This document shows positions 3,501 through 18,635 of a stretch of DNA of 22,695 nt, piece by piece. Below the pieces are notes generated by a model, which saw only the letters and a program-made list of their open reading frames with translations, made no database searches and was not told where the DNA came from. The translations under genes and the position numbers were made by a program. The DNA comes from a virus. The stretch is taken from positions 44,247 to 66,941 of the IMG/VR virus record IMGVR_UViG_3300030116_007542, one strand, 5' to 3'. How positions within the stretch are numbered: position 1 is the first letter of the stretch; each line of letters opens with the position of its first letter.

Positions 3501-4037
3501 TCAAATAAGACAGTTAGTGGCGTATGGGTTACCTTGGATCGAAAGGTATTTTACCGATTCTTTATTTAATTGCCAAAAGTCTGAATAGCCTGTGAAAAGC
3601 CAATCTTTATATATGGTGTGCCTAAATGTTTTAAATGAGGTTTTATGGAGGGATTCCTGAAAGCCAATGTATTTGCCTTTGCGATTAAATTTTAATATTA
3701 ATAAGTTCAAATCTTTATCTTCTGATACGTCTAATAATTGTTCTATCCATTCTTCTAATAGCCTAATTTCACCATTATATAAAAATTGGTGAAATGGAAA
3801 ATCTGCATATGATTTACATTCTACATTAAAATATTTCCAATTATCAGGTGGTATTATGTCTCCTCTAAATGATTGAACTTGCCCTTCAGACAAATGTTCT
3901 TTTCTTATAACATTAGAGCCACCGACATAAGCACCTGACGACGGTGTTCTTATAAAACTTTCGTTATATAAATCAGAAAGTTCTTTTGCTATTTCTCTTT
4001 CAAATGAACTACCTTTAGTTTTACTTTTACTTGGCAT
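3501..4037 (-). CDS. PD-(D/E)XK-type nuclease (resolvase-like)
   Basis: 178 aa. After a basic Ser/Lys start comes a helix with Glu13 (SFEREIAKEL), then TPSSGAYVGGSNVI, FRGDIIPP with Asp60, and NVECK with Glu73 and Lys75. This is the E...D...ExK constellation of the PD-(D/E)XK nuclease fold used by Holliday-junction resolvases and restriction-like nucleases. The remaining half is helical and aromatic. Its ATG lies inside the end of the upstream ACP-like gene (11-base overlap), so it is the last gene of the gp55-gp47-gp46 operon. Processing of recombination or packaging DNA intermediates would fit that company. The exact substrate cannot be told; a Holliday-junction or Vsr-like enzyme are alternatives. 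Confidence 0.65.
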   Translation of the reverse strand: MPSKSKTKGSSFEREIAKELSDLYNESFIRTPSSGAYVGGSNVIRKEHLSEGQVQSFRGDIIPPDNWKYFNVECKSYADFPFHQFLYNGEIRLLEEWIEQLLDVSEDKDLNLLILKFNRKGKYIGFQESLHKTSFKTFRHTIYKDWLFTGYSDFWQLNKESVKYLSIQGNPYATNCLI

Positions 4038-4386
4038 TACCTAAAGTGGCGTTATGTATTGCTAATAAATCTTCTTTTGTTTCTTTTTTAACTTCTTCTA
4101 CAAGAGTAGGCATATTTGAAAGATTACCATTTTTTATTATAAAATTCCACAAATCTTCAAGGGTATTTAATTCATACTCAACAACATGCAATAAACTTTT
4201 ATTATCAACAATAATATGTTCTTCGGAATGTAATTTGTCTACAAATTCTTTAAGTTTAATTCCTTTAAAATTTTGAGAATTTAATTCAGTAATTCCTGGT
4301 ATCGGTCCTTTTTCTTCATAAATTTGTTTCCACATTCTTTTAACTGCACCTACTACTCTTTCTTCTATTTCCGAACGATTAATCAT
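4027..4386 (-). CDS. Small acyl-carrier-protein-like protein lacking an obvious attachment serine
   Basis: 119 aa, alpha-helical. The pattern EIEERVVGAVKRM ... IKLKEFVDKLHSEEHIIVD ... LNTLEDLWNFIIKNG follows the order of an acyl carrier protein: helix 1, helix 2, a short hydrophobic strand-like segment, then the typical 'T-x-x-D-L' final helix. Where an ACP has Asp-Ser-Leu, this protein has Gly-Ile-Lys-Leu, so no phosphopantetheine site is visible; it would be a degenerate ACP or a chance look-alike. It overlaps the pyrD-like gene by 8 bases and the nuclease gene by 11, so it is firmly part of the operon. Function unknown; similarity is weak. Confidence 0.4.
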   Translation of the reverse strand: MINRSEIEERVVGAVKRMWKQIYEEKGPIPGITELNSQNFKGIKLKEFVDKLHSEEHIIVDNKSLLHVVEYELNTLEDLWNFIIKNGNLSNMPTLVEEVKKETKEDLLAIHNATLGNAK

Positions 4387-5086
4387 TTATTAAATTCCGA
4401 ATTTTCCATGGTGTGAAGCAAACTGTACCTAGACTAAAATGATCTGCTCCATGGTCCTTATACATATTTATTGTGTCTTTTGTGTAAATCCCTCCACCTG
4501 CTATAACGGTCACTGAGGGATACTTTGTCTTTATGAATTTCAGAATCTTTAATGTATAAGGGATTATTGCTCGTCCGCTCAACCCACCCTTCTCCGTTCG
4601 TATCGTGTTCGAAGCGTGTATTTGAGTGTATCCGCTCATTAGGACTGATTCTATTTCTCTTTCTGAATACGTAGGGGGTATTTTGCAAATACACCATTCT
4701 CTTTTATCCTCCGTCCATTTACTAAACCCTGTCCATAATGGATATTCCTGTGCAAATTTTTTTGGTGGCCATTTACCAGTATTTGGACAAGAAATGTTTA
4801 TTTCTACAGATGCATCTTTTGGCACAATGTCGTACATGTTGTGCCAGTCATCGCCTTCTATATGTGCTAAACTTAAAATTTCATTGGGTTTGTGTTTTTG
4901 TACACCAGTATGTATGCCTGGATTGCGTAATCCAAGTTTATTTATCCAGCCACCCCGTGTTGGCCGTAAAGTTTTTACAATTTGTTTTAATCTTCCTGTT
5001 CTTCGTTCTAAAGTCCAAGAACCAGTTACAGATATTGCATTTTTAAATTTTAAATAATTCCCAAAGGGAGCAGAAATAAAATACAT
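4379..5086 (-). CDS. pyrD: Dihydroorotate dehydrogenase-like enzyme (class 1 type active site)
   Basis: 235 aa, shorter than usual (about 300-340). DHODs oxidise dihydroorotate to orotate in pyrimidine synthesis using FMN. Family motifs appear in order: VTGSWTLERRTGR (19-32), KLGLRNPG (50-57), EINISCPNT (95-103), CKIPP with Lys135, HASNT with Asn160, KGGLSG (166-171), VIAGGG (194-199) and a final SLGT phosphate-binding turn. The Cys in NISCPN (Cys100) matches the catalytic base of class 1 (soluble) enzymes rather than the Ser of class 2. The missing length seems to lie in loops and the N-terminus rather than in the FMN core. It starts 13 bases after the gp46 stop and overlaps the next gene by 8. 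Activity is likely but not certain given the short length. Confidence 0.75.
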   Translation of the reverse strand: MYFISAPFGNYLKFKNAISVTGSWTLERRTGRLKQIVKTLRPTRGGWINKLGLRNPGIHTGVQKHKPNEILSLAHIEGDDWHNMYDIVPKDASVEINISCPNTGKWPPKKFAQEYPLWTGFSKWTEDKREWCICKIPPTYSEREIESVLMSGYTQIHASNTIRTEKGGLSGRAIIPYTLKILKFIKTKYPSVTVIAGGGIYTKDTINMYKDHGADHFSLGTVCFTPWKIRNLIND

Positions 5087-5099
5087 ACAAGTATTTAAT

Positions 5100-6875
5100 T
5101 TATTCTAGAACAAAATCTTTAGTAGTTTCGTATGTTGTAAAACCATTTTCCTTTGTTACTTGTAATATATCTGTAACTCTGCTTTGTAATTCATCCTTAT
5201 GACTTACAAGAAATACATTTTTATTACGTTCTCTTGCCATCTTTTTTAATACTGACATACTTGCTTCTACGCCCATTGTATCCATGCCACTATCAATAAG
5301 TTCATCTATACATAATAAATTAATAGGATGATTTAAATTTTCAAAAACATCTCTAAAGGACCAACTTAAACCTAGTATAAGTCTATTACGTTCTCCTCGA
5401 GATAAATTATCAAAATCTAAATCACGTCCTAGTTCTGTAATTTCTACAGTTAGATCATTTAAAAATTTAACACTATGTGGTAATCCTAAATCTAACAAGT
5501 ACTTTTGTAATTTATTATTTAGATACTTTAAGTTTTGCTCAACAATAAGTTTACGTATATACGAATCTGGTTTTGTTAACATATCCTTTAAAAATTCTCT
5601 ATGAGTTAAATCATCAGTTAACTCGTTAAGTTTATCAAATGATACGTCTGTCCACGCCGTTTCTTTTAAACTTTTAATTTGATCTGCATATGGATCTTCT
5701 TCTTTTTGTTTTGTTTCTAATTTTTCTTTTAAGTTTTTTAAAGAGTTTTTATGATCATGTGCATGTTGTATGTTAGTATAACTAACAGACGGTTTTTCTT
5801 TATGATGTCCTATTACTGTATTAGCCGCAGTAGCCGCATCATGCTCACTTTGTGCTTTATCTATTTGCGTCTGTGCATCTTCTAACTGTTTTTCTTTTTG
5901 TTTAATTAATGTCTCGTGTCCATTTGTATGTAAATCCTGTTTGCAAAGCGGACAACTTTTATTTTTTAATTGCTCAAGATCATTTAATATAGATGTACGT
6001 ACATTGTCTGCATGTTTTAATGCCTTTTCAGCAAGTGATAATTCTTTCTTACATTGGTTTTTGGCATTAATCCATTCGTTAAATTCGTCTAATAATTCAT
6101 GTTGTTTTAACTCATGCTCAATATCTATTTTGCTTAAACGTTCAATTCCTAATGTTAATTCATTAACTTCCTTTTTCCAGTTTTTTTGCCAAACAGTTGT
6201 ACGACGTTCTAAGTCTGCTATTGTTTTTTCTATTCTTGCATTTGCTTCTTGTTGTGCTTTAACTCTAAATTCTTCTTCCTTAATGTTTGATTTTACTTCT
6301 TTAATAGACTCTTTTAAAACTTCCGCTTTTTCACTAAGTTGTGTAACACCTAGTATGAGTTCAATCATCTCACGTTGTTCGTGTGCTCGTAAAGCAAGAA
6401 ATGGTTCTGTGTATGTATTAAGTGCAATAATATGTTTAAAAAGTGTACTATTAATACCAAGTATTTTGTTTATTTCTGCTTGTGTATTACGTCCTTCGCC
6501 TTGCATTTCATCTGTAGTACCATTATCAGTTTCATGTGCATCAACAATAAATTTAAAAATATTAGGTTTTCTACCACGTTCAATTTTATAAAAATGTCCA
6601 TCCTTTTCAAATTCAACGGCAACCATCATGCCTTTGCTATTTGTTTTGTTTATTAGGTTGTCCTTTTTAATACTTGTTAAAGGAACACCAAATAAACCAT
6701 AACTTAGAGCATTGATAATTGTAGTTTTACCTGTTCCATTACGTGATTCGTTAGAACCTAAATCTAAATTACTACCTAATACTAAAGTTAACACTGAGTC
6801 GTCAAATGTAACGGCCTGCGTTACATTACCTACACTCATAAAGTTTTTTACAGATAATGTTTTTATATTAAGCAT
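5100..6875 (-). CDS. 46: gp46-like recombination endonuclease subunit (SbcC/Rad50-type ATPase)
   Basis: 591 aa. It is the ABC-ATPase subunit of the gp46/gp47 complex that resects DNA ends for recombination-dependent replication. Visible features are a Walker A loop GSNESRNGTGKTT (40-52); a long charged coiled coil from about 185 to 400 with the zinc-hook CPLC at 308-311; the ABC signature LSRGE (491-495); Walker B LLCIDEL (520-526); a D-loop at about 528-532; and an H-loop VSHKDE near 560. Length is close to T4 gp46 (560 aa). The start overlaps the end of the pyrF gene (8 bases, ATG inside the last codons), so the metabolic gene is translationally linked to it. The nuclease partner gp47 lies two genes upstream in the same operon. 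Confidence 0.95.
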   Translation of the reverse strand: MLNIKTLSVKNFMSVGNVTQAVTFDDSVLTLVLGSNLDLGSNESRNGTGKTTIINALSYGLFGVPLTSIKKDNLINKTNSKGMMVAVEFEKDGHFYKIERGRKPNIFKFIVDAHETDNGTTDEMQGEGRNTQAEINKILGINSTLFKHIIALNTYTEPFLALRAHEQREMIELILGVTQLSEKAEVLKESIKEVKSNIKEEEFRVKAQQEANARIEKTIADLERRTTVWQKNWKKEVNELTLGIERLSKIDIEHELKQHELLDEFNEWINAKNQCKKELSLAEKALKHADNVRTSILNDLEQLKNKSCPLCKQDLHTNGHETLIKQKEKQLEDAQTQIDKAQSEHDAATAANTVIGHHKEKPSVSYTNIQHAHDHKNSLKNLKEKLETKQKEEDPYADQIKSLKETAWTDVSFDKLNELTDDLTHREFLKDMLTKPDSYIRKLIVEQNLKYLNNKLQKYLLDLGLPHSVKFLNDLTVEITELGRDLDFDNLSRGERNRLILGLSWSFRDVFENLNHPINLLCIDELIDSGMDTMGVEASMSVLKKMARERNKNVFLVSHKDELQSRVTDILQVTKENGFTTYETTKDFVLE

Positions 6876-7479
6876 TAAGAAAAGATCTCCCCATTACAAG
6901 ATAATCAGCACCGGCATTAATAGCCTCCTTTGGTGTTGCTACTTTTGTTTGATCGTCATTAGTAGAAGTTAAACGTATCCCAGGACAAATTCTAGATAAT
7001 GCATGTTTTGGATCTGCTTGGTTTACTTTTTTTAAATCTGGAACTGAACAAACAATTCCATCAAAGTTATCTATTATTTTATTAACATGTACTTTCCAAA
7101 ATTCATCAGTAGCATGTATTGAAGACTCTTCTGTTGAAGACCATGATGTAAGAGATGTTACTCCTAGCATATGAATGTCTTTACTAAATTCTTTGAGATC
7201 TTCAAATACTCTAGGATTGTTAAGTGTGCTAATAGTTATATAACTTGCTCCTAAATCAATAGCATGGCTTACTATTGTTTTTACAGTATTTGGTATATCC
7301 CACAATTTTAAGTCAAGGAAAATATTAAGATTGTCATAAGGAGCCAAATCATGCATGAGCAAATGATTAACTTTAAAACCGTATACTTCATCGTTGTATT
7401 TTTCTATAATATCTCTGGCGTTACTTACAGACATATTATCAAGTGCTACAAACACTTTTTCAATTTGCTCTTTTTCCAT
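6868..7479 (-). CDS. pyrF: Orotidine 5'-phosphate decarboxylase
   Basis: 203 aa, slightly short for the family (about 230). It catalyses OMP to UMP, the last step of de novo UMP synthesis. The signatures are intact: VALD with Asp14; FKV with Lys36; DLKLWDIPNT, in which Asp56, Lys58 and Asp61 complete the Lys-Asp-Lys-Asp catalytic array; CPGIRL (165-170); and the phosphate-binding ADYLVMGRS end (191-199). An active enzyme is therefore expected. The gene overlaps the small ORF upstream by 20 bases and gp46 downstream by 8, so it is locked into the gp47-gp46 operon rather than inserted as a separate unit. With the pyrD-like gene it brackets gp46; the intermediate step (orotate phosphoribosyltransferase, pyrE) is not seen in this window. 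Confidence 0.92.
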   Translation of the reverse strand: MEKEQIEKVFVALDNMSVSNARDIIEKYNDEVYGFKVNHLLMHDLAPYDNLNIFLDLKLWDIPNTVKTIVSHAIDLGASYITISTLNNPRVFEDLKEFSKDIHMLGVTSLTSWSSTEESSIHATDEFWKVHVNKIIDNFDGIVCSVPDLKKVNQADPKHALSRICPGIRLTSTNDDQTKVATPKEAINAGADYLVMGRSFLNA

Positions 7480-7663
7480 GTAAGTCAGTATATATTATTG
7501 AGTAAATGTTGTCCGCTTCGTCTTCTTCTATGATGACGAAATCACCTAAAGCATCCAATATTACGTAACCACCGCCATCGCGGTATTTACGCACCTCATA
7601 GTTTCCTGAATGCCCAAGGTGATTGGAAACATCTAAAATTTCCATATGTTTTTTTAAATTCAT
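7460..7663 (-). CDS. Small acidic protein of unknown function between gp47 and pyrF
   Basis: 67 aa; I do not recognise it. The predicted shape is mostly beta: a YEVRKYRDGGGYVILDAL segment followed by GDFVIIEEDEADNIYSIIYTDLHG. A small barrel or an oligomeric regulator is conceivable. The start overlaps the gp47 stop (ATGA) and the end overlaps the pyrF start by 20 bases, so ribosomes would pass from gp47 through it into pyrF. That tight coupling on both sides supports it being a real gene. A second in-frame ATG six codons downstream is an alternative start. Confidence 0.6.
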   Translation of the reverse strand: MNLKKHMEILDVSNHLGHSGNYEVRKYRDGGGYVILDALGDFVIIEEDEADNIYSIIYTDLHGKRAN

Positions 7664-8676
7664 AACGAATTGTAGATGTTTACTAATTTTTCAACCTTTA
7701 TTGTTTCACTTTTAATACATTGTAACTGATTTAGTACCACTTTGTCAACCGTTTCAAACTCAATTTCACCTTCAGTTTGGTCTTCAGTATACTCTGTATT
7801 TGTATTTGGAAGCATTGTTATTTCACGAATAGGGTATTTTTCTAGGTATATTTCTTTAATTTGAGTAGCCTCTTGATACGTTATATCTATGTCTAAATTA
7901 ACTTTTAGATGCGTTTTAGCCTTTAACATATCATCGGTATTATCCATTAAAGTACTAAGATCGGTTGTTACATACCTAGGACAATTATCCCAGTTTAAAA
8001 ATTCAGGAACACCACCCCATTCTAATATCATCATGCCTCTATCATCATCCCATGCATCTGCATAGTTATGAGGAAAAGCATTACCTATGTAATGTACATT
8101 TGATTTATTTTGTCGCTTGTGAAAATGTCCAGTAAACACATATTCTTGATTAGGAAAATGTGACATGCCTGGTCCGCCATGATCGGGCATTTCTACCATA
8201 GCATTCATTTTAAAACCACTAAGTTCAAAATGCCCAAACATATAAGGTTCTTTAAATTTAACAACTTTTTTCCATTCATTTTCAACAAGCCACGGAACAA
8301 TAGCAACATCACCGTCTTGCATTATCTCATTTACAATTTCAATATTTTTCCATACTCTTCCAAAAGGAAGCGAATTAATTTCACGTTTTTCTCTGTAATA
8401 TAAATCATGGTTGCCCATAATCATATAAACTTTTTCAAACGCTTGACTTAATCTTTCTAAATTACTTATAGTATAGTTTAATGTTGAAACGTTTATTTGA
8501 GCTCTGTGGTGATGCCAATCACCTAAAAATATAGCAGTTTCACAATCCCTTGCTTGTGCTTCGGTTATAAACCATTTTATAAATTCTTCACAATCATCGT
8601 TATGCAAACGACTATTGTTTCGTAATCCAAAATGTATATCTGTAAAACATGCAACTTTTTTAAATAATTTTTTCAT
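7660..8676 (-). CDS. 47: gp47-like recombination nuclease subunit (SbcD/Mre11-type phosphoesterase)
   Basis: 338 aa, the same size as T4 gp47 (339 aa). It is the metallophosphoesterase partner of gp46. All five metal-binding motifs are visible: FTDIHFG (Asp13, His15), LGDWHHHR (Asp53), MGNHD (Asn89, His90, Asp91), FGHFE (His149) and TGHFHKRQ (His184, His186). The C-terminal third is acidic and presumably holds the gp46-binding part. The start overlaps the gp55 stop (ATGA), and its own stop overlaps the start of the small ORF downstream. Expression from the sigma70-type promoter at 9548-9576 would make it an early gene. Confidence 0.95.
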   Translation of the reverse strand: MKKLFKKVACFTDIHFGLRNNSRLHNDDCEEFIKWFITEAQARDCETAIFLGDWHHHRAQINVSTLNYTISNLERLSQAFEKVYMIMGNHDLYYREKREINSLPFGRVWKNIEIVNEIMQDGDVAIVPWLVENEWKKVVKFKEPYMFGHFELSGFKMNAMVEMPDHGGPGMSHFPNQEYVFTGHFHKRQNKSNVHYIGNAFPHNYADAWDDDRGMMILEWGGVPEFLNWDNCPRYVTTDLSTLMDNTDDMLKAKTHLKVNLDIDITYQEATQIKEIYLEKYPIREITMLPNTNTEYTEDQTEGEIEFETVDKVVLNQLQCIKSETIKVEKLVNIYNSL

Positions 8677-9518
8677 TTTGCTTCTGCTTGTTCCAAAGGT
8701 AAAATTGATTCATCAGTTCCCCATTTTTCTGCTTTAGATTTTTGGTTCTGAAGATAATCATTTAATTGTCTTGTATAACTAGGATTATACCCATGTTTTA
8801 TAAGTAGGTCATCACGTATGTTTTGACTCTTTTTCTCTAGGTTCAATATACGTGTAAACGAGTTTGTAATTGCGGCAGTATAATATGCAAATGGATTTTG
8901 TGATTTGCTTTCATCAAATTGTAAACCTATTTGACTAAGTTGCAATAATGCTTGTGATCGCATTTCATCAACATATGTATATCCACGCCAATTAGATCGC
9001 ATACTATAACGATCGCACAATAACATGAAGCCTTTTGCTAAGTCATCAGTAATATATCCATGTACTGATGAAAAATGCCCGTCTTTTAAATCACCTTTCC
9101 AATGACTTCTTCCAACTTCTACAAGTTTATCATTGATTAACGTCCAATGTTTAAATGCTGGAAAGTTAATTTTAACGTGATAATCTGCTTCTGTTTTTGG
9201 ATTCTTTTTTAGTTTTTCTTTTGGAGGAATGTGATCATAATCTGTAACTCTATAAATCACATGATTTTTAAGTTCTTTGTCGGGGACCTTTATTGGTGGG
9301 TCTTGTGCCTCTAATTTAGCCTTACGTATGTCCTTTGCTTGCTTAGTTGTTCTTATATTAATCTTGTCTAACGAAGGAAGAATTATGTCATAATCTGAAT
9401 ACTTGTCATCTTTAAACCAACAATAAGTTTTTTTAGATAAATGTATTTGCTTTAATAATTCTTTATTCGTTAGGTATTTCTTCGCGGCTTTTTTGCCGGG
9501 TGCTACTATTTTTTGCAT
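8673..9518 (-). CDS. 55: gp55-like late transcription sigma factor with N-terminal extension
   Basis: 281 aa against 185 aa in T4. The C-terminal half (about 155-255) is the recognisable part: MRSNWRGYTYVDEMRSQALL, then ESKSQNPFAYYTAAITNSF, then LNLEKKSQNIRDDLL and a GYNPSYTRQL tail, as in gp55 of marine T4-like phages and corresponding to sigma region 2. It would recognise the TATAAATA-type late promoters seen elsewhere in the window. Residues 1-150 form a basic extension, including HWTLINDKLVEVGRSHWKGD, which I cannot assign. First gene of the leftward operon; ribosome site AGGTAG before the ATG. A gp33-type coactivator is not seen here. Confidence 0.88.
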   Translation of the reverse strand: MQKIVAPGKKAAKKYLTNKELLKQIHLSKKTYCWFKDDKYSDYDIILPSLDKINIRTTKQAKDIRKAKLEAQDPPIKVPDKELKNHVIYRVTDYDHIPPKEKLKKNPKTEADYHVKINFPAFKHWTLINDKLVEVGRSHWKGDLKDGHFSSVHGYITDDLAKGFMLLCDRYSMRSNWRGYTYVDEMRSQALLQLSQIGLQFDESKSQNPFAYYTAAITNSFTRILNLEKKSQNIRDDLLIKHGYNPSYTRQLNDYLQNQKSKAEKWGTDESILPLEQAEAK

Positions 9519-13370: not shown

Positions 13371-14509
13371 TGGCTGGCGTTATTTCAAGTGCGATACAAG
13401 AACAATATAAAACAGGTGCTGGATATTATAATAAAATGTCCGGCATTTATATTGGTAAAGTAAAAAAGAATGAAGATCTTGAAAATCATGGTAGATTGTG
13501 GGTATGGATTCAATCTACTGGCTCATCTGAAGATGATGAAACATATTGGTTTCCATGTGTTTATACTAGTCCTTTTGCAGGTGCAACAGATCAATTTAAA
13601 GTAACACCAGGCAAAACATATGATTCTACACAAAAAAGTTATGGTTGGTGGGCTACACCGCCTGATATTAATAACTATGTAGTTTGTGCTTTTCCTGAAG
13701 GATATCCCTGGGGTATATGGTTTTCATGTTTATATCAAATTAGTACCAATCAAACAGTACCAGGTATTCCTTTTAATACAACTACTGCTGGCGAATTTCC
13801 TGCCGCTAATAAAAATAGATTATCACAAGGTAAAAAAGATACAACATTTCCACCACATGATGTATTAAAGAAAGGACTTACAACTCAAGGATTAGAAAAA
13901 GACAAAGTTCGTGGTTTAACTACAAGTGGTGCAAGACGTGAAAGTCCTAGTAAGGTTATTGGTGTATTAAGTCCTGCTCAACATCAATTTGTTATGGACG
14001 ATGTTGATCCTGATAGTGGTATAAGATTACGTACTGCAAATGGTGCTCAAGTGTATATAAATGATACCAATGGTTTTGTATACATTATTACTAAAGATGG
14101 CAATAGTTGGATAGAGATGGACAATGACGGCAACATAGATATGTATGCAAAAAATAATGTTAGTATACATAGTGAAACAAATATAAACTTACATGCTAAT
14201 CAAGATATACGTATGCAAGCAGATAATATTATAGGTATAAAAGCACTTGCAGATGTGCATTTAGAAAGTGTTGGCACAACAAATATTCAATCTGGTAGTA
14301 ATTTAATGATAACAACAGATGCAGATGGTAATATAAAATGTGCAGGTGGATATAAAGAAACTGCAAGTAGAATTGACATGAATGGGCCTACTGCGACTTC
14401 CGCAACTAAATTAACTGCAAATAGTTTAAGCGAAAATACAAATGTAACCTCAAGTATTGCAGTTCGAGTTCCTGAACACGAGCCTTGGAAAGGACATATA
14501 AATCAATAA
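13370..14509 (+). CDS. 5: gp5-like central spike protein without lysozyme domain
   Basis: 379 aa, against 575 for T4 gp5. Residues about 22-140 form the OB-fold (GIYIGKVKKNEDLENHGRLW, WFPCVYTSPFAG, VVCAFPEGYPWGIWF). A linker follows with SPSKVIGVLSPAQHQFVMDD and GIRLRTANGAQVYINDTNG, and then a repetitive triple-stranded beta-helix (DGNIDMYAKNNVSIHSETNI, INLHANQDIRMQADNIIGIK and onward) at about 240-325. Together this is the membrane-piercing needle that trimerises under the hub. T4 gp5 carries a lysozyme domain between OB-fold and helix; here the linker is too short for one. A separate lysozyme-like gene lies three genes downstream. Start and stop both overlap neighbours (TAATG). Confidence 0.82.
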   Translation: MAGVISSAIQEQYKTGAGYYNKMSGIYIGKVKKNEDLENHGRLWVWIQSTGSSEDDETYWFPCVYTSPFAGATDQFKVTPGKTYDSTQKSYGWWATPPDINNYVVCAFPEGYPWGIWFSCLYQISTNQTVPGIPFNTTTAGEFPAANKNRLSQGKKDTTFPPHDVLKKGLTTQGLEKDKVRGLTTSGARRESPSKVIGVLSPAQHQFVMDDVDPDSGIRLRTANGAQVYINDTNGFVYIITKDGNSWIEMDNDGNIDMYAKNNVSIHSETNINLHANQDIRMQADNIIGIKALADVHLESVGTTNIQSGSNLMITTDADGNIKCAGGYKETASRIDMNGPTATSATKLTANSLSENTNVTSSIAVRVPEHEPWKGHINQ

Positions 14510-15819
14510 TGTGGATAGGCACAGACTGTCAACAAGACGAAGTGTTTAATGAAAACACTTACACTTGGCCAACAGGACAAAAATATACTGGCGAATTTAT
14601 TAAAAATCCAAACACAAGCAAAAATAACTCTCCTATGATTCCTCATGGTAAAGGTACATGCGAATATCCTGATGGAAGAAAATTTGTTGGTACATTTAAT
14701 TTAGGAGTGCCTGCAGAAGGAAAATGGAATGTACTAACAGATATAAAACAAGATAATAAAATGTATACTTCAGATGGTAGAGTATATGAAGGAAATTGGA
14801 TAAATGGTAATGCTAGATTAACATTGCATACAGGTACAATATATGAAGGTGTTTTTAAAGACGGAAAAATAATTAAAGGAACAATGACATATCCTTCTGG
14901 AAGGAAATGGAATGGCAAATTTGATGAAAATATGCAACGATATATTCATGATCCAGTAAAAGAAACAATAGTACCTAGAGGTAAAAGAATATACTATGGA
15001 GAAGTTAACGAATTTGGCGAAGAAGATGGAATAGGATATTTTACTATCGAAGATGGTACACAAGGAGCAGGCGAATTTAAAAATGGACATTTATCTGGTA
15101 TTTCTGTTTTACAAAGAGCTTCAGGAGAAACATATGCTATTGATAGAAAAGGTAATGATAAAGAAGGTCATGGCATTTATATTTGGCCGGCAAAAAATGC
15201 ATATGAAGAAGATACTTGGTATATAGGAGAATTTAAAAAAGCAAAGCCAGAAGGATTTGCAATATTTAAAACAAGTTATGGATATACTTGGGTCGGCGAA
15301 GTTAACAGATCATGGATGCCTGTAGCTGGTAATGGAACTTGGTATAATAGATATAATAAACCTGTAGAATTGCCTATCTGGATAGGTGGAGAAAAAAAGT
15401 TTGAAGGATTTGGTACATTAATTGCAGATAATGGAATTTATTACCAGGGCGAATGGCTTAATGGTTTAAGACATGGCTGGGGTATATACATAAAACCTGA
15501 TGGATATAGATATGAGGGTGAATTTAAAAATGATAAAAAGCATGGCAAAGGTATATTTTTTAAAGCCAAACACAATAATGTTTATGAAGGTGACTTTGCT
15601 GACAATCTCCCTAATGGTTATGGTATTCGTTATATGGCCGAAGGATTTAAAGGTAATGTCATATATAGAGGAAAATTTAAAAACGGGTTGTTTGAAGGAA
15701 AAGGAGAATTGCGGTTTAGTGATCGCACATCATTTTTTGGCACTTGGAACAACGGTGAATTAATTACTGATGATTTAAAACGATATGAAGAACAAACAGG
15801 ATCACCATACCACATTTGA
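14509..15819 (+). CDS. MORN-repeat protein in the baseplate operon
   Basis: 436 aa from the ATG that overlaps the gp5 stop (TAATG). Nearly the whole length is made of MORN-type repeats, about 23 residues each, of the form Y-x-G-E-F/W-x-x-G-x-x-x-G-x-G. Clear copies are YTGEFIKN..HGKG, YEGNWINGNARL, YEGVFKDGKIIKG, YYGEVNEFGEEDGIG, YQGEWLNGLRHGWG, YEGEFKNDKKHGKG, YEGDFADNLPNGYG and YRGKFKNGLFEGKG. MORN arrays form elongated beta-solenoids known mainly in eukaryotic and some bacterial proteins that organise membranes or act as protein scaffolds. In a phage this could be a fibre, spike accessory or host-surface contact protein; that is inference. An in-frame TTG eight codons upstream is a less likely start. 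It continues into a second MORN gene in another frame. Confidence 0.85.
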   Translation: MWIGTDCQQDEVFNENTYTWPTGQKYTGEFIKNPNTSKNNSPMIPHGKGTCEYPDGRKFVGTFNLGVPAEGKWNVLTDIKQDNKMYTSDGRVYEGNWINGNARLTLHTGTIYEGVFKDGKIIKGTMTYPSGRKWNGKFDENMQRYIHDPVKETIVPRGKRIYYGEVNEFGEEDGIGYFTIEDGTQGAGEFKNGHLSGISVLQRASGETYAIDRKGNDKEGHGIYIWPAKNAYEEDTWYIGEFKKAKPEGFAIFKTSYGYTWVGEVNRSWMPVAGNGTWYNRYNKPVELPIWIGGEKKFEGFGTLIADNGIYYQGEWLNGLRHGWGIYIKPDGYRYEGEFKNDKKHGKGIFFKAKHNNVYEGDFADNLPNGYGIRYMAEGFKGNVIYRGKFKNGLFEGKGELRFSDRTSFFGTWNNGELITDDLKRYEEQTGSPYHI

Positions 15820-16153: not shown

Positions 16154-17035
16154 ATGTTAAAAGTCGCACCAACAGTTGATTTTAGTATTTTTACAGCCTC
16201 AACAACTGTAGATACAACTACAAAAGCATTAGTAACTAGTTTTGCTTTAAGTACATACGGCAAATCATTTATCCTATCACAAACAAGATATCGTCCTGTA
16301 AGAATATATCAAAACGGCACATATCAACAAGGTTATTATAATACTACTCTTAATTTTGAATATGGATTAACGGCAACAGAAGCATATAGAGTTTTTGAAC
16401 AAGATGTTGCAGATGCCGCAATATTTGTTAAAAACTTTTATCCCGATACTACAAAATGTACACAAAATCAATTTGATACATTAGTTAGTTTATACTTTTT
16501 TGAAAAGAATTTACAAACATTGTTAGGCAATTCTGGTACATATGATATACAAACTGCATTCTTATCTGGTACTGCTGAAAACTTTGCAAATATATTAATG
16601 GATACTTCTACTAACAGACAACGACATTTTAAAGAAGCAAAAATATACGCTTTAGGTGAGTATGGAGATGCTTTATCTACGGCATGGCTTCGTAATGAAG
16701 GTATTCAATATATACGAGCTAATTATCCGGATAATTTTCCTAGTGTGGCGAGCAGTCCAACAACTGAGCAAAAAAGACAAGCTCGGCTATCCTATTACCG
16801 TGAAGTTCAACTTTGGCTTTCAGGAATGACCGAGCTTGAAAAGCAAGATACAACTAACTTATATGATCAAGTTGTTGCAGGAACAATTGATCCGTTAAAG
16901 GCATTAAAAAGCGGAACATCAAATACGTCATCCAGAACAACTTCAATTACTGGTGCAACAACATCTACTAGTTCTACTTCGTCGTCTAGTAGTAGTTCTA
17001 CTTCGTCGTCTAGTAGTAGCAGTTCTAGTTATTAA
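16154..17035 (+). CDS. GH24 lysozyme-like structural protein with poly-serine tail
   Basis: 293 aa. Residues 45-170 follow the phage-lysozyme (GH24) layout: YRPVRIYQNGTYQQGYYN in place of the 'aYxDxxGxxTIGyGh' loop, LTATEAYRVFEQDVADAAIF (helix after the loop), CTQNQFDTLVSLYFFEKN ('l.q.qfdALvSf.fN'), and TSTNRQRHFKEAKIYALGEY ('GL..RR..E..lY..G'). The catalytic Glu expected before the loop (fEG motif) is not there; the segment reads SFALSTYGKSF. The loop Asp is replaced too, so the protein is probably a non-catalytic lysozyme fold. After a helical stretch (about 200-250) it ends in about 40 residues of Ser/Thr. Ribosome site AAAGGA precedes the ATG. Position in the baseplate operon, with gp5 lacking lysozyme, suggests a split and altered gp5 lysozyme domain; this is inference. 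Confidence 0.5.
   Translation: MLKVAPTVDFSIFTASTTVDTTTKALVTSFALSTYGKSFILSQTRYRPVRIYQNGTYQQGYYNTTLNFEYGLTATEAYRVFEQDVADAAIFVKNFYPDTTKCTQNQFDTLVSLYFFEKNLQTLLGNSGTYDIQTAFLSGTAENFANILMDTSTNRQRHFKEAKIYALGEYGDALSTAWLRNEGIQYIRANYPDNFPSVASSPTTEQKRQARLSYYREVQLWLSGMTELEKQDTTNLYDQVVAGTIDPLKALKSGTSNTSSRTTSITGATTSTSSTSSSSSSSTSSSSSSSSSY
16971..17018 (+). repeat. Two perfect 24-bp tandem repeats encoding Ser/Thr
   Basis: Positions 16971-16994 and 16995-17018 are identical 24-mers beginning GTTCTACTTCGTCG. They encode most of the poly-serine tail, and mixed TCT/TCG/AGT serine codons show that the unit was duplicated as DNA rather than built codon by codon. Copy number could vary by slippage. Confidence 0.85.
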
Positions 17036-18635
17036 GTGAAACTATTTTATTATTATCTTCCCAATTTAACATATAATCCCATTCAAAAATAGTAACTTTA
17101 CAAGTATGAAATTCAGAAGTTCCAGGACCATCATTCCAAGTACCTAATTTTTTATCTGGGTTCGAATTTTTGAGTATCATCTCGGCATAATCTTCATTAA
17201 AGTTATAATTATTTGGTTCTTTTGGTGCCCAATTAGTAAAAGATGGATTTGAATTATCGGACCATCTCCAATCATTTTCTTTTGACAAATCGGTTAATCC
17301 TATTCTTAATGAATACCCTGATGTTTTATCGATCTCATCATTTAATTGTTTATAAAAATAATTTGCTAAAAATTCATTTTCTTCAGAATTATCAATTTTC
17401 ACTGGATACGAATTGAATTCTTTTGATAGATTTTTAGCCATTGACCAGGTAACACACTTATTGGTTAATGCGTATGTATGGTTTTGATAGACTGTAAAAT
17501 GTAAAAAGTATTCATTAATTTGAGCTTCAGGGGAAGGAATAACGGCTAGGATTTTCTTTTCCTTCCGAACACAACGGACATTGTATTCTTTCAATTTATC
17601 CTTTGTTTCATACACATCAGGATTCATTTCTGAAAAATTTACTGTCCATGCACTAACATCCATAGATTCAGTTAGGGTCCAAAATTGTTCATAAATCTTT
17701 GATTTCTTATCTGGATAATCTCCCTTTTCAGGCAAAGTCCAATCATTGAATCCTTCAAGCTCTAGATTTTTGCAATATTCGACAGCACCATACCAATTAA
17801 CTTGGTAATCAAATGCTTCTTTCTGCCACATCAGCTCGGTTGTTGGTTTATTATTAGAAACGAGTTTTTTGGGCGTTTTATTAACAACTTTTTTAGCAAC
17901 AGGTTTCTTCTTTGCATAACCAGCCTGTTCAAACAACTTGTTAGATTGCATAACCTGATTCATAGCAAGTAGTTGGTTGTTTCTTTCAAGTTGCTGAAGT
18001 CTATTTTCAAGTGATGTATTTTTCTTAGATAATTTTGTTAGTGTTTCGGATTGGTCTTCCATGTAAGCATTTGCAGTTTTCCTATTTTCTTTACAAGTTT
18101 CCATTTCATCATGTGGAACTTTTATTAATGTTGACACTACAAAAGAATGTCCCATAAAACTTCCACCATGAAAGTTGCTATACCGTTCTAAAAAACGATC
18201 TTCGACTGTAACATTGCCCATGAACATTTCTGCTCTCATTTTAGCAAACGAATTACCATGGGTTAATGTATCAATGACTCCGCCATTTCCACCTATACTT
18301 ACGTCTTTATGTTCTTCCATAACAGAAACATTAAGTCCGCAAAAACGAGCAAATGCAATCATAGCATCATTAAACGATTCGTTTTTTGCATCTTTACGTT
18401 CCGAGCGTTTATTTGACATACCTACAAAAAAATATGCATCATTAGTTTGTGGAGGTTTTCTCAGCCAATTAGGTTCTATTGCAGGCTCGGTATGATCTAG
18501 TTGAGAGTAGCCTGATATTTTTACTTTGTGTATTGATTTTGCTTTTGGAGTAGTAGCCGTTGCAGTTGAACAGCCTATAATAAACGGAAGAAGTAAATAT
18601 AAAATCTTATCCTTTATTGTTATTTTGTTTTTCAT
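17025..18635 (-). CDS. Multidomain lipoprotein: LPP20-like, coiled coil, DUF1566 and C-type lectin domains
   Basis: 536 aa. The signal peptide ends in the lipobox IIGC (Cys22) followed by Ser, so outer-membrane sorting is likely. Residues about 50-185 resemble the LPP20-type domain of the neighbouring lipoprotein (PNWLRKPP...YFFVGMSN...). Residues about 190-240 are a coiled coil (TLTKLSKKNTSLENRLQQLE), then a Lys/Pro linker. DUF1566/Lcl follows at about 270-360 (LMWQKEAFDYQ, LEGFNDWTLPEKG, VRCVRKE). The C-terminal part, about 380-515, is a C-type lectin fold with RIGLTD, WRWSDNSNPSFTNW, an EPN motif at 473-475 and WND at 500-502; EPN plus WND is the calcium/mannose-type sugar-binding combination. 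It overlaps the lysozyme-like gene tail-to-tail by 11 bases. A surface-displayed glycan-binding protein made in the infected cell is inferred. Confidence 0.75.
   Translation of the reverse strand: MKNKITIKDKILYLLLPFIIGCSTATATTPKAKSIHKVKISGYSQLDHTEPAIEPNWLRKPPQTNDAYFFVGMSNKRSERKDAKNESFNDAMIAFARFCGLNVSVMEEHKDVSIGGNGGVIDTLTHGNSFAKMRAEMFMGNVTVEDRFLERYSNFHGGSFMGHSFVVSTLIKVPHDEMETCKENRKTANAYMEDQSETLTKLSKKNTSLENRLQQLERNNQLLAMNQVMQSNKLFEQAGYAKKKPVAKKVVNKTPKKLVSNNKPTTELMWQKEAFDYQVNWYGAVEYCKNLELEGFNDWTLPEKGDYPDKKSKIYEQFWTLTESMDVSAWTVNFSEMNPDVYETKDKLKEYNVRCVRKEKKILAVIPSPEAQINEYFLHFTVYQNHTYALTNKCVTWSMAKNLSKEFNSYPVKIDNSEENEFLANYFYKQLNDEIDKTSGYSLRIGLTDLSKENDWRWSDNSNPSFTNWAPKEPNNYNFNEDYAEMILKNSNPDKKLGTWNDGPGTSEFHTCKVTIFEWDYMLNWEDNNKIVSLNN

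Follow-up and report, generated by a model that had tools for sequence, protein, structure and literature searches.

We analyzed a window of viral DNA 22,695 nucleotides long, the final 22.7 kb (positions 44,247 to 66,941) of the 66,941-base IMG/VR virus record IMGVR_UViG_3300030116_007542, which may itself be a fragment. Within it, two genes for enzymes of uridine monophosphate (UMP) synthesis, pyrF and a short pyrD, stand on either side of the recombination nuclease gene gp46. On the minus strand the run reads gp55, gp47, a 67-amino-acid open reading frame (ORF), pyrF, gp46, the short pyrD, a 119-amino-acid ORF, and a PDDEXK nuclease gene (Table 1). Overlaps are of 4 bp between gp55 and gp47, 4 bp between gp47 and the 67-amino-acid ORF, 20 bp between that ORF and pyrF, 8 bp between pyrF and gp46, and 8 bp between pyrD and the 119-amino-acid ORF, and a 13-bp gap separates gp46 from pyrD. 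The original prediction, two UMP pathway enzymes within one overlapping operon, is supported by this gene order and these junctions. It had the coordinates of pyrF and pyrD right and correctly tied pyrF to gp46 by the overlap at the gp46 start; its placement of pyrF between gp47 and gp46 stands with the correction that the 67-amino-acid ORF intervenes between gp47 and pyrF. Enzyme families, residues, folds, gene order, overlaps, spread, and a pyrF deletion are described here from sequence or from prediction.

From its sequence, we are confident that the first of the two genes encodes PyrF, the orotidine monophosphate (OMP) decarboxylase. The product reaches 91.3 bits with PF00215 (cut-off 27) and 101.1 bits with the TIGR01740 pyrF model (cut-off 92.3), and it falls below the stricter NF001273 cut-off (120.4 against 193). 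Its catalytic Lys/Asp array, as first proposed, and its phosphate-binding residues are all present: K36, D56, K58, D61, G197, and R198 are identical in all 31 aligned PyrFs, and Q177 in 30 of them. It departs from known OMP decarboxylases in its length of 203 amino acids and its short C-terminal end. A viral scan with the single PyrF protein gave no match, a profile being required to detect relatives, and the PyrF matches in Listeria and Klebsiella records of the phage collection were set aside, as they look like host DNA. Such records lend some color to the idea that host DNA or an assembly artifact put bacterial pyr genes in this phage contig. However, both genes lie among phage genes with overlapping frames, and the order gp47-pyrF-gp46-pyrD is kept in two independent contigs, L010 and L011, at 57-70% PyrF identity, a recurrence that refutes the artifact reading and leaves it virtually no chance.

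Table 1. Genes and signals of the overlapping run in the window
Feature	Position	Strand	Basis
gp55-like late sigma factor, opens run	8673..9518	-	phrog_12791 E 9e-76
gp47, SbcD/Mre11-like nuclease subunit	7660..8676	-	phrog_100 E 8e-62
67-amino-acid ORF in gp47/pyrF interval, no assigned function	7460..7663	-	ORF; conserved in L006, L010, L011
pyrF, OMP decarboxylase, 203 amino acids	6868..7479	-	PF00215 E 1e-25; TIGR01740 above cut-off
GGGGAG, probable gp46 Shine-Dalgarno, within pyrF 3' end	6887..6892	-	Read from sequence
gp46, SbcC/Rad50-like recombination nuclease subunit	5100..6875	-	phrog_77 E 1e-99
Short pyrD, class 1-like dihydroorotate dehydrogenase, 235 amino acids	4379..5086	-	PF01180 E 4.5e-14; fold
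119-amino-acid ORF, overlaps pyrD end	4027..4386	-	ORF; family searches gave none
PDDEXK nuclease, closes overlapping run	3501..4037	-	PF24608 E 9e-26

The short PyrD and its relatives

The product of the second gene reaches 52.8 bits against the PF01180 DHO_dh model (cut-off 27). Its closest solved relatives by profile are class 1 dihydroorotate dehydrogenases (DHODHs), and the top 50 Foldseek matches of its predicted fold are all DHODHs, most of class 1. Cys100 (the catalytic base), Lys135, and the substrate residues Asn49, Asn97, Asn102, and Asn160 are invariant across 65 short PyrD relatives. In these profile and fold matches, and in the Cys base, Lys135, and substrate Asn, the protein shares the features of class 1 enzymes such as L. 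lactis A and B and those of trypanosomatids. The class 1 assignment with a Cys base and Lys therefore holds, whereas the FMN (flavin mononucleotide) motifs claimed with it are incomplete, because Gly22 takes the place of the first FMN-side Lys of class 1 (VTK in the S. mutans enzyme), and this Gly is invariant throughout the family. Further differences are the length (about 300 amino acids in class 1 versus 235), the position far below every curated NCBIfam DHODH cut-off (best, 54.7 against 269), and the PyrK partner, not seen in the operons read. By sequence, the short PyrD is a distinct family, and we infer its activity, FMN use, and electron acceptor from these likenesses.

A viral scan with the window PyrD as query gave 25 loci and a profile scan gave 182 viral stretches. 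Among cellular genomes, the short PyrD is present in Candidatus Actinomarina (47-53% identity), Marinimicrobia, Planctomycetes, and Francisella philomiragia, and it is the only DHO_dh gene above the cut-off in four Actinomarina, two Marinimicrobia, and one Francisella genome. Genome-collection matches L147, L148, L181, and L182 resemble phage contigs binned into metagenome-assembled genomes (MAGs) and were excluded from the cellular evidence; L148 (PBPT01000016.1, 335 kb), filed as a Marinimicrobia MAG, has phage-like genes flanking the short PyrD and looks like a binned jumbo phage. Three Planctomycetes hold the short homologue plus a longer DHO_dh gene, and therefore not every family member need be a pathway enzyme; the Planctomycetes homologue is possibly a paralogue with another role. 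At Planctomycetes loci L185 and L195, it adjoins ComF-like and FliM-like genes.

This coexistence, together with Gly22 and the shortfall against the NCBIfam models, would fit a short PyrD-like protein that is some other flavin enzyme or a noncatalytic barrel, in which case only the PyrF step would be lifted. We regard this as rather improbable, as the Cys base, second Lys, and substrate Asn do not vary in the 65 relatives, the gene is the sole DHO_dh gene, inside a complete pyr operon, in Actinomarina, and it adjoins pyrF both in several phages and in Francisella. Mutants of pyrD and of pyrF in Francisella have been reported to be uracil auxotrophs (PMC9643745), which would speak for the pathway role if the pyrD of those strains is the orthologue of the F. 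philomiragia gene.

Position beside gp46 and history of the two genes

The original prediction saw in this arrangement a special coupling to the recombination nuclease. In its functional form, UMP synthesis would be linked to gp46/gp47, for instance by a physical complex or coupled translation that supplies nucleotides to recombination-dependent replication. The 8-bp overlap and the order shared with L010 and L011 are compatible with such coupling, as is the probable gp46 Shine-Dalgarno within pyrF, with translation of gp46 probably starting, to judge by the sequence, from a site inside pyrF. However, pyrF is missing between gp47 and gp46 in L006 to L008, which are closely related to L010, and it was not found in the record of L009, which starts at pyrD; gp46 is intact in these pyrF-less relatives. 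In L006 (7560-7720), an in-frame deletion joins the first ~22 codons of pyrF to its last few at a GAGAT repeat, leaving a stub of ~28 codons, and it keeps the gp46 start with an AGGAG Shine-Dalgarno; pyrD is retained. Moreover, an extra 191-amino-acid ORF, not present in the window, separates gp46 from pyrD in L006 and L010, overlaps of similar size run throughout this set of genes, and in other phages pyrF and pyrD are found at a distance from gp46, either overlapping each other as a pair or among purine genes. Loss of pyrF beside a kept gp46 and the extra ORF point to cargo in a good expression site rather than to a nuclease cofactor. The association with gp46/gp47 looks to be a matter of position rather than of a biochemical tie to the nuclease, and functional coupling is very unlikely.

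Phylogeny of both enzymes, suggested with the original prediction, gave a mixed outcome. Phage PyrDs mostly cluster together, beside the Actinomarina and Marinimicrobia branches, and phage PyrFs form a branch separate from the few cellular PyrFs compared, but the two trees disagree in detail. The PyrD tree (94/66) suggests that the window lineage simply split a captured pyrF-pyrD pair, but with the PyrF data the same grouping was rejected for six sequences (p 7e-5) and not rejected for eight (p 0.08). The two genes may have arrived together or separately.

Elsewhere in the window are a MORN-repeat protein (14485-15819) and a protein with C-type-lectin and Lcl domains (17025-18635). The same phage record holds, outside the window, an ATP-type phosphoenolpyruvate carboxykinase (G000:C1:14621-15850, L003; PF01293 E 8e-93), an unusual phage metabolic gene, as well as, at G000:C1:10078-13089 and 16873-17865, a radical-SAM (S-adenosylmethionine) protein, a family 3 solute-binding protein, and another ORF that its sequence suggests is radical-SAM-like.

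The orotate step in cells and phages

The step between PyrD and PyrF belongs to PyrE, the orotate phosphoribosyltransferase (OPRTase). In Actinomarina genome G026, pyrR, pyrB, pyrC, carA, carB, pyrF, and the short pyrD follow one another in this order, closely packed, and are followed by a gene for a 118-amino-acid phosphoribosyltransferase (PRTase)-like protein, here called mini-PRT, and the order pyrF-pyrD-mini-PRT is repeated in 25 loci. The mini-PRT thus occupies the place of pyrE at the end of the operon, in a complete pathway without another PyrE: none above the TIGR00336 cut-off was found in eight such genomes, and the remaining PRTases in G026 were identified as HPRT, PyrR, an XPRT-like protein, Upp, and, judged by size, Prs. 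It carries a phosphoribosyl pyrophosphate (PRPP) motif, DDVYTTGTS, and an N-terminal FxSHAGxxL that aligns with the OPRTase FxLxSGR. The family profile matches a four-sequence PyrE alignment, the one multi-sequence PRTase alignment compared, with a strong score (hhalign, 95.7%, E 1e-8); against single PRTase sequences, hhalign did not cleanly separate PyrE from an XPRT-like protein, and only the PyrE alignment scored strongly. With a model of a phage mini-PRT (predicted local distance difference test, pLDDT, 93), Foldseek ranked OPRTases first among PDB matches.

Mini-PRTs differ from PyrE in their 118 to 168 amino acids, in a gap of ~22 residues at the position of the flexible catalytic loop, and in scores below the curated models (20.6 against 106.8 for TIGR00336 and 24.2 against 26.3 for PF00156). 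The flexible OPRTase loop is usually held to be part of catalysis. Despite the failed models and the missing loop, the 118-amino-acid protein is likely the PyrE of Actinomarina cells. The Actinomarina operon shares with the window the short PyrD family and an adjoining pyrF; it is a complete cellular pathway, whereas the window has pyrF and pyrD only, with gp46 between them.

Relatives of the mini-PRT were found in 336 viral stretches, the phage members spanning the same 118 to 168 amino acids. No match was found among the 50,697 phage records of the phage collection, and for the PyrE of cyanophage P-SSM7 the match is an ordinary PyrE, not the mini-PRT. The view, from PF00156 alone, that there is no PRTase partner beyond Prs-sized frames was rejected, since PF00156 misses the mini-PRT. 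The pyr genes occur in several combinations: pyrF-pyrD pairs with the pyrD ATG within the end of pyrF (L012, L049, L050, and L105), pyrF-mini-PRT pairs with a 4-base overlap (L299, L302, and L312), and a mini-PRT-pyrD pair (L030). Record G043 holds PyrF, short PyrD, and mini-PRT together, and records G041 and G045 hold PyrF, short PyrD, and an aspartate transcarbamoylase (ATCase) above the TIGR00670 cut-off. In G041, PyrD is flanked by a PurC-like gene and PurM, with PurL and PurQ shortly ahead of PyrF. No PyrC was found in the 44 records searched. The loci were picked by search patterns and include fragments, so no significance is claimed for co-occurrence counts.

The absence of pyrE from the window was borne out, and searches of the whole 66.9-kb record gave neither a PRTase (PF00156) nor a mini-OPRTase, and those of its close relatives no mini-PRT, though each of these records may be a fragment. 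The further proposal was that the phage lifts two steps and relies for the middle one on the host or on a distant gene. Leaving that step to the host probably does not hold for phages of the wider group, in which an OPRTase-like gene of this small size is often carried and in some cases an ATCase. Given that the mini-PRT is common in marine phages, and in some of them adjacent to pyrF or pyrD, these phages probably often supply the missing pyrE step with an unrecognized mini-enzyme, though not in the 66.9-kb record.

Some phages modify pyrimidines, and a ThyX-like gene, named from reading its translation, lies near pyrF-pyrD in L012. Genes that serve a modified pyrimidine for virion DNA, and not UMP, would fit such a neighbor. 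However, no base-modification gene was recognized in the window gene run, and elsewhere the two genes accompany standard pyr and pur genes, which makes this scarcely probable.

Several other phage loci deserve mention. The 117.6-kb record G041 (L047 and L320) brings together PurL, PurQ, PurM, a PurC-like protein, PyrF, short PyrD, and ATCase. A 595-kb phage (LR756511.1; L001 and L346) has a distant short PyrD, an ATCase above the cut-off, and an ordinary-size PyrE-like PRTase; PyrF was not found there. A protein of 274 to 284 amino acids recurs beside pyr genes in several phages (L012:1393-2229, L147:2028-2852, L182:1156-2010, and L347:2364-3206); it reads MTxLIxPxxFTxA...VHTQNRLSILAACEDP, looks class II-synthetase-like, and has no NCBIfam match at 1e-20. 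In L013, L014, and L029, the short PyrD adjoins a UvdE-like UV (ultraviolet) endonuclease, with a QueD-like protein and mini-PRT upstream (names from reading translations).

Pyrimidine genes as probable phage cargo

We think it likely that pyrF and the short pyrD are auxiliary metabolic cargo that raises UMP supply in infection and comes from a pyr pool shared by marine phages. The short PyrD would convert dihydroorotate to orotate with FMN and its Cys base; the host PyrE, or a mini-OPRTase-like protein encoded outside the sequenced part, would combine orotate with PRPP to form OMP; and PyrF would decarboxylate OMP to UMP, such that infection would pull dihydroorotate and PRPP through to UMP. 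Marine phages would share and reshuffle a pool of pyrB, short pyrD, mini-pyrE, and pyrF, and in the window lineage both genes flank gp46, in what would be a transcription unit already making a late sigma factor and repair proteins. The timing and benefit of this scheme, like the function of the mini-PRT, are what we infer from these data. Several observations weigh against it: the low curated-model scores and Gly22 of the short PyrD, the second DHO_dh gene of the three Planctomycetes, the detailed disagreement of the two trees, the lack of a PyrE-like gene in the window's own record, and the lack of PyrF in the majority of the tested phage records with a PyrD, each of which may be a fragment.

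The literature already lists pyr genes in phages: pyrE is recognized as a gene of cyanophages and viromes (PMC9983427, PMC4022391), and a gene list from estuarine viruses includes pyrDI and pyrF (PMC13288924). Like the known auxiliary genes of phage nucleotide synthesis (cyanophage pyrE, purC/purM/purN, and thyX; estuarine pyrDI and pyrF), those described here encode host-type nucleotide enzymes in marine T4-like phages. The window differs in that two pyr genes flank gp46 in one run, and its relatives differ in their paired and triple pyr modules, short PyrD, and mini-OPRTase. We found no description of the pyr module, the short PyrD family, or the mini-OPRTase in the literature, with most subscription journals and all preprints outside the search, and module, family, and mini-PyrE appear to be new.

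We lean, if slightly, toward the view that a reduced UMP set is common to marine phages and streamlined marine actinobacteria, consisting of a short DHODH without the first FMN-side Lys and an OPRTase of ~118 to 168 amino acids without the loop, and that phages reassemble it with PyrF and ATCase, together covering four of the six steps. If true, a likely PyrE, a very small OPRTase lacking the loop, would be at hand for a marine bacterial group that is abundant and yields no PyrE above the cut-off with standard models. The recurring reading that phages with pyrD and pyrF lack pyrE would be corrected, and phages would lift de novo pyrimidine synthesis as a set, not as single genes.

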